The notes beneath the pieces were generated by a model. It was given only the letters and a program-made list of their open reading frames with translations. It was not told the DNA's origin and did no database searches. A DNA stretch of 23,659 nucleotides, taken from an uncultured Lentisphaeria bacterium. GTDB lineage: Bacteria > Verrucomicrobiota > Lentisphaeria > JABSQK01 > CAJWLW01. Shown here piece after piece: positions 6,139 through 7,085 of this stretch. A program made the position numbers and the translations under genes. Location: positions 1 through 23,659 of the forward strand of contig CAJWLW010000040.1 of assembly GCA_913042885.1 (NCBI GenBank), in the 5' to 3' direction. Positions within the stretch are counted from its first letter, which is position 1; each line of letters starts with the position of its first letter.

Positions 6139-6885
6139 TCAACGGCCGTCGATGCTGGCAACCGTCCCGTCGTCAGCAAACAGGTTGCCCGCCGGCGACT
6201 CGCAGCCGAAGTTTATTGGAGTGCTGTCGAACGGTTGTCCCTGCATCCGCTGCAGAGCAATATGTCCGTCAATAAAAAGGACGTTCGCCGCCGTTTCATG
6301 GCGGAAATGTGCATAGCCGCTCTTGGCCAGTCCCGGCGGCTCACCCCAAGTGGGAAACAGCACGTAGTGGCCTTCGTTGAAGCGGTTGGAGAAATCAAAA
6401 TGAATGGCGTCGGTAAACGTAAATACGGTGGAGGCACGGCTGACATATTTATTCTCACGCTGATCCATCAACCGAAGATTGTAGCCGTAGGTGGCGACGC
6501 GTCCGTCGAATTTCTCATAGAACGTCGATGCACCATACGGAAAAAGCGGACACTGCAGCCGGTTTTCGAACGAATTCACGAAGGGCGCCAGCAGCGCCTG
6601 CGACCTGTCGATCGGCCGGTTGGCGCCGCCCCCGGGGCCACCGGGTTCGAAACCGAACCACCAATGGCGGCCGCCGGCCGAATCGGTGAAGTACGGAAAG
6701 TAATATTCGTCGTACGTGTCGACGTACTGCCGTACGCCAATCCCGATCTGTCGCAGGTTAGACGCACACAGCGCTCGTTGCCCGCTGAGTTTCGCCTGGT
6801 TCAGTGCCGGCAGCAACATCGACGCAAGGATCGCAATAATCGCCATGACCACGAGCAGTTCTATCAATGTGAAATGTTTTTTCAT
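6139..6885 (-). CDS. Pseudopilin-like protein with H-X9-DG C-terminal motif
   Basis: The 248-residue protein starts MKKHFTLIELLVV, the type IV prepilin/pseudopilin methylation signal with the conserved Glu at +5 after cleavage, followed by one hydrophobic helix ending in LASMLLPALNQAK. The C-terminal part contains HETAANVLFIDGH, an exact H-X9-DG motif. This architecture is abundant in planctomycetes, verrucomicrobia and lentisphaeras, where such proteins are numerous and mostly uncharacterised. Residue -1 of the cleavage site is His, not the canonical Gly. It should be processed by a prepilin peptidase and sit at the inner membrane or cell surface. The start lies 11 bases after the U-tract of an intrinsic terminator and has only a poorly placed AGGG. 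A cobalamin riboswitch precedes the terminator, so expression is likely B12-responsive. Confidence 0.9.
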   Translation of the reverse strand: MKKHFTLIELLVVMAIIAILASMLLPALNQAKLSGQRALCASNLRQIGIGVRQYVDTYDEYYFPYFTDSAGGRHWWFGFEPGGPGGGANRPIDRSQALLAPFVNSFENRLQCPLFPYGASTFYEKFDGRVATYGYNLRLMDQRENKYVSRASTVFTFTDAIHFDFSNRFNEGHYVLFPTWGEPPGLAKSGYAHFRHETAANVLFIDGHIALQRMQGQPFDSTPINFGCESPAGNLFADDGTVASIDGR

Positions 6886-6896
6886 ACCCTGTTCAT

Positions 6897-6934
6897 AAAA
6901 AATGCCGAACCCCGCAAACCGCGGCATTCGGCAT
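6897..6934 (-). terminator. Intrinsic terminator, probable riboswitch expression platform
   Basis: Read on the minus strand, ATGCCGAATGCCGC (6934-6921), a five-base loop GGTTT and GCGGGGTTCGGCAT (6915-6902) form a 14-pair stem with one mismatch and one G-U pair. Six T residues follow (6902-6897). It lies between the cobalamin aptamer and the pseudopilin ATG at 6885, in the position expected of a ligand-controlled terminator. Its base at 6934 is about 20 bases from the aptamer's 3' end. Confidence 0.8.
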
Positions 6935-6956
6935 CAAACCACATTGATTCAAGCCA

Positions 6957-7085
6957 AAAGCCCCTGACGCGGAGACTTCAGTATGTCAGGGTTATCTGAC
7001 TTACGGGCTTGAGGCCCGATTACAGCGGCGCGACCGTCCCGGATTCTCACCGGGTTCCCCTGTGACAGCAGAACTATAGTGCACG
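6957..7085 (-). ncRNA. Cobalamin (B12) riboswitch
   Basis: Read on the minus strand, the conserved core is unmistakable. It reads GGGGAACCCGGTGAGAATCC, then GGGACGGTCGCGCCGCTGTAATC, then a short hairpin GGGCCTCAAGCCCG. A B12-box-like segment AAGTCAGATAACCCTGAC (about 7002-6985) comes next, and TCTCCGCG closes the element. Order and spacing fit the shorter class of cobalamin riboswitches. Boundaries are approximate by about 10 bases. It begins 84 bases after the nfo stop codon on the same strand and is followed by a terminator and the pseudopilin gene. An adenosyl- versus methylcobalamin preference cannot be read from the sequence. The typical targets are B12 uptake or synthesis genes; none is seen here. 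Confidence 0.88.

Follow-up and report, generated by a model that had tools for sequence, protein, structure and literature searches.

The window analyzed here, a 23,659-nucleotide stretch of DNA from an uncultured Lentisphaeria bacterium, carries on its minus strand a cobalamin riboswitch aptamer followed by an intrinsic terminator, a pseudopilin gene, and the gene for a partner protein, together referred to as the cassette. The features are as follows.

3422-4930, plus strand: lysS, convergent, downstream of the cassette
5012..6103, minus strand: secreted partner, 363 aa, L-type-lectin-like beta sandwich (residues 25-291) with a helical tail
6139..6885, minus strand: prepilin-type pseudopilin of 248 aa with an apparent long N-terminal helix and beta head
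6262..6309, minus strand: HFRH...DGH signature of aptamer-linked pilins (residues 193-208), based on [FY]RH counts
6897..6935, minus strand: intrinsic terminator, a 14-pair hairpin with one 1x1 mismatch followed by T6; presumed expression platform
6972..7094, minus strand: cobalamin riboswitch aptamer (RF00174) in a compact 123-nt form; cmscan, 45.2 bits
7169-8020, minus strand: xylose-isomerase-like TIM-barrel gene (AP_endonuc_2), upstream of the cassette

The aptamer and terminator

The preliminary description had placed a cobalamin aptamer upstream of the pseudopilin gene, and running the Rfam model on the minus strand bore this out. The score of 45.2 bits exceeds the RF00174 gathering cutoff of 31.5 bits (E = 1.4e-8), the match spans the full model (positions 1-189), and it is the sole above-gathering Rfam match within the window. 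The range originally claimed for the element, 6885-7085, takes in most of the aptamer. Folding likewise supported the 14-pair stem with its T6 tract: the stretch from 6935 to 6901 forms 10+4 pairs at −24.6 kcal/mol (z = −5.3), an energy matched by 0 of 200 shuffles. A simple promoter and terminator scanner reported neither a promoter nor a terminator; the interrupted terminator stem may lie outside the pattern that this scanner uses. Only 86 bases separate the end of the aptamer from the pilin ATG, and from its position we infer that the aptamer regulates the pilin gene.

The pilin, its partner, and the surrounding genes

The pilin opens at ATG 6885 with the N-terminal sequence MKKHFTLIELLVV. 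It had been described as an H-X9-DG pseudopilin. The prepilin domain TIGR02532 scored 23.0 bits (cutoff, 16.3), PF07963 passed by a narrow margin (21.9 versus 21.2 bits), and the literal motif H196-X9-D206-G207 is present, but the protein is not above cutoff for the H-X9-DG-CTERM model (TIGR04294; 13.9 versus 19 bits), nor for DUF1559 (PF07596; 17 versus 23.3 bits). Foldseek by itself returned no significant match for the window pilin.

The partner gene begins ∼35 nt past the end of the pilin gene, and its product has an N terminus that reads as signal-like. Its fold is L-type lectin-like. The window partner matched no Pfam family, and a PDB sequence search returned nothing for it. It was also considered as a member of DUF4465 (PF14717), and this was rejected because the profile gave no match up to an E value of 1. 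For this lectin-like protein, the ligand may be a glycan and not a corrinoid. Relatives of the window partner (P0137, P0138, and P0148) bear names such as Dongiaceae, Polarisedimenticolia, and Acidobacteriota.

No TonB receptor was found among the 17 other window proteins (E of 1e-5) or the two cassette genes (E of 1). Elsewhere in the window, positions 11159-22363 hold an ordinary-looking gene run resembling sugar or sugar-acid metabolism (Peptidase_C26, creatininase, D-lyxose isomerase, TIM-barrel, SDRs, mandelate-racemase family, HEAT repeats, and 2-hydroxyacid dehydrogenase).

The closest relative that we found, locus L001 of a Lentisphaeria metagenome-assembled genome (MAG; genome G001), encodes a pilin 88% identical to that of the window and retains the window's arrangement of aptamer (RF00174, 48.4 bits), terminator (−22.5 kcal/mol, z = −4.3), and pilin gene. 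The only other aptamer of this genome (36.8 bits) lies upstream of genes for a BtuF-like binding protein and a corrinoid-type ABC ATPase (L036, 1501-3107). The former matches PF01497, and its BtuF model match (3.1e-20) is below that model's cutoff; the ATPase fragment (6.8e-47) is also below cutoff. A FecCD gene starts 1.8 kb downstream of this second aptamer on the same contig.

Cobalamin aptamers recur upstream of related pilins

Fifteen of 18 pilin-family loci drawn from species genomes have an upstream aptamer above gathering; the others are L006, whose contig starts close upstream, L015, and L018. In 14 of the 18 genomes no second match accompanies the upstream aptamer, and in G006 the sole aptamer sits at a contig end.

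Linkage was then counted in three class sets, with class labels assigned here: the Phycisphaerae set is the class of G002 (Phycisphaeraceae bacterium), the Lentisphaeria set that of G001 (Lentisphaeria bacterium), and the Verrucomicrobiae set that of G013 (Chthoniobacter flavus). An aptamer match (E of 0.001) was obtained in 180 of 198 Phycisphaerae-set genomes, above cutoff in 178, and 156 genomes have exactly one, counts in which stricter search filters may have missed weak aptamers. We retrieved 100 of the 150 listed aptamers, each with up to 8 kb of downstream sequence. By homology clustering, 78 of the 92 loci that could be evaluated, or 77 of 94 when counted by genome, have a homologous pilin on the same strand downstream of the aptamer. 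A strict sequence pattern found a pilin within 4.5 kb downstream in 72 of 91 loci, fewer than by homology because divergent N termini are missed. The controls, which belong to the strict-pattern count and not to the homology count, showed a pilin on the opposite strand at 0 of 100 loci and, between 4.5 and 8 kb downstream, at 1 of 77. Approached from the pilin side, 47 of the best 60 subfamily matches come from genomes for which an aptamer is listed, and 45 of the 47 lie downstream of it within 6 kb.

Such aptamers also lie upstream of these pilins beyond the Phycisphaerae set, at lower frequency. The pilin link was present in 6 of 33 evaluable loci of the Lentisphaeria set (40 fetched), one of which is from the genome of L001, and in 9 of 39 evaluable loci of the Verrucomicrobiae set (40 fetched). 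Opposite-strand controls gave 0 in both sets, and further-downstream controls gave 1 of 20 and 1 of 38, respectively.

Terminator-like hairpins (−12 kcal/mol or better) occur within 350 nt past 37 of 72 pilin-linked aptamers versus 10 of 216 mononucleotide shuffles. At the 14 of 92 Phycisphaerae aptamer loci that lack a pilin, the recognized targets are familiar ones for B12; as labeled by reading of the sequences, they appear to include cobalamin-biosynthesis genes, MetE, and an anaerobic-type ribonucleotide reductase. What follows the aptamer in G039 is a TonB receptor instead of a pilin.

At the Chthoniobacterales loci L013, L014, L016, and L017, the cassette consists of aptamer, secreted protein, and pilin; after it come apparent metY-like genes, joined in the longer loci by apparent metX-like genes (names from sequence reading). 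The secreted proteins share WVGxGxNxAALVxQWNDG...WGYRWDG; that of L014, the one scanned among the four, matched no Pfam family.

Aptamer-linked pilins form a largely separate set

We built a tree of 112 pilins by a quick, short search without bootstraps. The 92 linked pilins include that of the window and those of the Lentisphaeria and Verrucomicrobiae sets; the 20 unlinked pilins, meaning those not near a listed aptamer, are a small, high-scoring, hand-chosen sample, most of them from genomes that also have a linked pilin. The tree requires 4 label changes, compared with a shuffled mean of 18.7, and 0 of 500 shuffles gave as low a count. One unlinked pilin, L286, was placed among the linked ones. 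Consistent with this separation, [FY]RH occurs in the head of 86 of 92 linked pilins versus 1 of 20 unlinked pilins. We conclude that the linked pilins form a largely separate set with an FRH...DGH motif.

Some partners belong to a B12-binding family

We scanned 117 proteins, comprising the window's partner and 116 of the 118 downstream open reading frames (ORFs) that made up a single similarity cluster and include perhaps a few wrong frames. At an E value of 0.01, 41 matched PEP-CTERM, 23 dockerin, 11 the PQQ_2 propeller, and 10 DUF4465. DUF4465 is a family with measured B12 binding, and a member from Mucisphaera calidilacus binds B12 (PMC13398666); the title of another paper places that species in Phycisphaerae (PMC8882080).

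In the Phycisphaerae set there are 25 DUF4465 genes, with 25 of 198 genomes having one. Nineteen of the 25 genes adjoin a pilin, which either is encoded no more than 5 kb away on the same strand or shares their aptamer locus; an aptamer lies upstream of 17, and 23 have either a pilin or an aptamer. The DUF4465 protein of L075 matches the B12-complex structure 9hmu (6e-24). Furthermore, of 51 listed aptamers, 10 (in nine genomes) have a FecCD permease gene no more than 8 kb away, where ∼0.24 would be expected. FecCD is the family of BtuC and also of siderophore permeases, so the presence of a FecCD gene cannot tell B12 permeases from siderophore permeases.

A PDB sequence search returned nothing for a Verrucomicrobia partner and, for a second secreted protein (L157), one chance-like match (E = 0.13). 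By eye, the partners of L077, L115, L125, L129, L142, L157, and L158 have a DGW-type motif shortly before the C terminus; they may represent a second uncharacterized secreted family of these operons.

TonB-dependent receptors in cassette genomes

In 38 of 61 Phycisphaerae-set genomes, a search for TonB-receptor barrels gave no match. The plug domain was then not found in 36 of these 38, nor in 44 of all 47 genomes searched for it. A barrel is present in 9 of the 18 species genomes of pilin-family loci; absences are soft evidence, because these 18 genomes are all MAGs and many of the others are in many contigs. Among genomes with a listed aptamer, the aptamer is pilin linked in 21 of 24 TonB-less versus 9 of 18 TonB-bearing genomes (P = 0.014). 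After plug matches and later pilins were added, the counts became 20 of 23 versus 11 of 19 (P = 0.043), and the contrast across genomes is thus weak.

In G001 the barrel search gave no match, and there is one TonB plug fragment (L298, 1375-1734), at a contig end and behind an N gap. This fragment may be a real receptor or contamination, and because of it G001 cannot be called TonB free. Together with the change in P value, it weakened the proposition that TonB-less genomes always use the pilin.

A probable corrinoid-acquisition cassette and its alternatives

The observations that bear on function are the aptamer, the terminator, the gene order and its recurrence, the largely separate pilin clades, the colocation with DUF4465, and the nearness of FecCD. 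On balance, we think it probable that the window locus is a B12-repressed corrinoid-acquisition cassette. With corrinoid in good supply, the aptamer would bind it, the terminator would form, and neither gene would be made; when corrinoid is scarce, transcription would read through into the pseudopilin and the secreted surface protein. The general machinery of type II/IV pili would assemble the pilin into a short fiber that displays or carries a surface corrinoid binder, a role that the window partner would fill here. Captured corrinoid would then pass into the periplasm and to a BtuFCD importer, often without a TonB-dependent receptor. In such an operon the pilin may carry, deliver, or export the binder.

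The suggestion that this widespread pseudopilin class may include members engaged in corrinoid capture gains support from the aptamer linkage, the adjacency of pilins to 19 of 25 DUF4465 genes, and the nearness of FecCD; a role of the pilin itself in handling B12 is putative. Counted against the cassette reading are the window's partner, which is lectin-like, is not a DUF4465 member, and has some relatives named from other lineages; the 14 of 92 aptamer loci that lack a pilin; the TonB receptors in some cassette genomes, the plug fragment of G001, and the weak TonB/pilin contrast; the inability of FecCD to tell B12 from siderophore permeases; and the pilin link at only 6 of 33 loci in the window's own class set.

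A bolder version of the cassette reading is that Phycisphaerae and some relatives take up B12 by a retractable pseudopilus instead of a TonB-dependent receptor, with FRH...DGH pilins presenting a corrinoid binder outside the cell and handing it through the outer membrane to BtuFCD. We put this forward tentatively, as a possibility and not as the expected outcome. A study of other planctomycetes describes pili-like fibers that bind gold-labeled dextran, for which the authors speculate on a role in uptake (PMC5394234); this makes the carrying fiber of the cassette reading conceivable.

The alternative that survives best keeps the cassette for B12 capture and changes the task of the pilin, which would be a dedicated secretion pseudopilin that assists a type II-like system in exporting or anchoring the B12-binding surface partner without itself contacting corrinoid. 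Partners that look secreted and in many cases have a PEP-CTERM (41 of 117) or dockerin (23 of 117) tail fit this explanation, as do the abundance of such pilins in these genomes and the retention of the pilin clades with the operon while partner families change. Were export the sole need, however, general pseudopilins should suffice for most partners, yet the linked pilins form largely separate clades with a head motif of their own, and we regard a pure secretion role as rather unlikely.

Adhesion is a common role of pili. B12 starvation might accordingly induce an adhesive fiber and a lectin for attachment to B12-producing algae or bacteria, with no part in uptake, as the L-type lectin fold of the window partner would allow. 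We judge this improbable, since the DUF4465 B12 binders in the loci, like the FecCD genes that neighbor some loci, speak for uptake. Finally, chance or hitchhiking, by which pilins are so common (about 20 to 420 candidates per genome at a first look) that one falls near an aptamer, has a negligible likelihood and was rejected on the opposite-strand (0 of 100) and distal (1 of 77) controls and on the clustering of linked pilins in the tree.

What the cassette would mean

Prepilin-like candidates, mostly without an assigned role, number from dozens to hundreds in the sampled genomes, and the lack of a TonB-receptor match in many of these genomes raises the question of how large, scarce cofactors enter. 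The widespread riboswitch-defined operon described here, in which a few pilin clades accompany surface proteins that in some cases belong to a B12-binding family, offers the question of cofactor uptake a named gene set, B12 as a signal that can be controlled, and an easy readout. If true, the retractable-pseudopilus version would amount to a pilus-based system for vitamin uptake and would assign a role to one branch of the planctomycete pseudopilins, which are very abundant.

Comparison with known systems

Our searches of open-access full text listed no report of a link between cobalamin riboswitches and pilins. The parts are of known kinds, and their combination is, as far as these searches reach, unreported in the open-access papers that they listed.

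The nearest counterparts are the Bacteroides BtuB-BtuG-BtuH-BtuJ loci, which are cobalamin-riboswitch-controlled operons of surface B12 binders (PMC10404256, PMC12751083, PMC13398666). Some operons described here likewise encode DUF4465, the BtuJ family. The Bacteroides binders are lipoproteins that act with a TonB-dependent BtuB, whereas the recurrent partner here is a pseudopilin, many of the surface proteins end in a PEP-CTERM or dockerin tail, and searches often failed to find a TonB receptor. DUF4465/BtuJ (PF14717) itself is encoded near an aptamer and a pilin in some Phycisphaerae-set genomes, the window's partner being a nonmember; as neighbors of the family, the Results and Discussion of the DUF4465 paper name ABC, TonB, and beta-propeller genes and not a pilin (PMC13398666).

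The dextran-binding fibers resemble the fiber proposed here in being surface fibers tied speculatively to periplasmic uptake; they differ in belonging to other planctomycetes, in their substrate, and in a fiber protein that is not tied to these pilins (PMC5394234). Among type IV pilins and type II pseudopilins, those with H-X9-DG (DUF1559-like) are the closest in kind. The window pilin shares with them the prepilin N terminus and the literal H-X9-DG and would share the long helix and the beta head; it differs in falling below the DUF1559 and H-X9-DG cutoffs, and the pilins studied here are set apart as FRH...DGH clades under a B12 aptamer.
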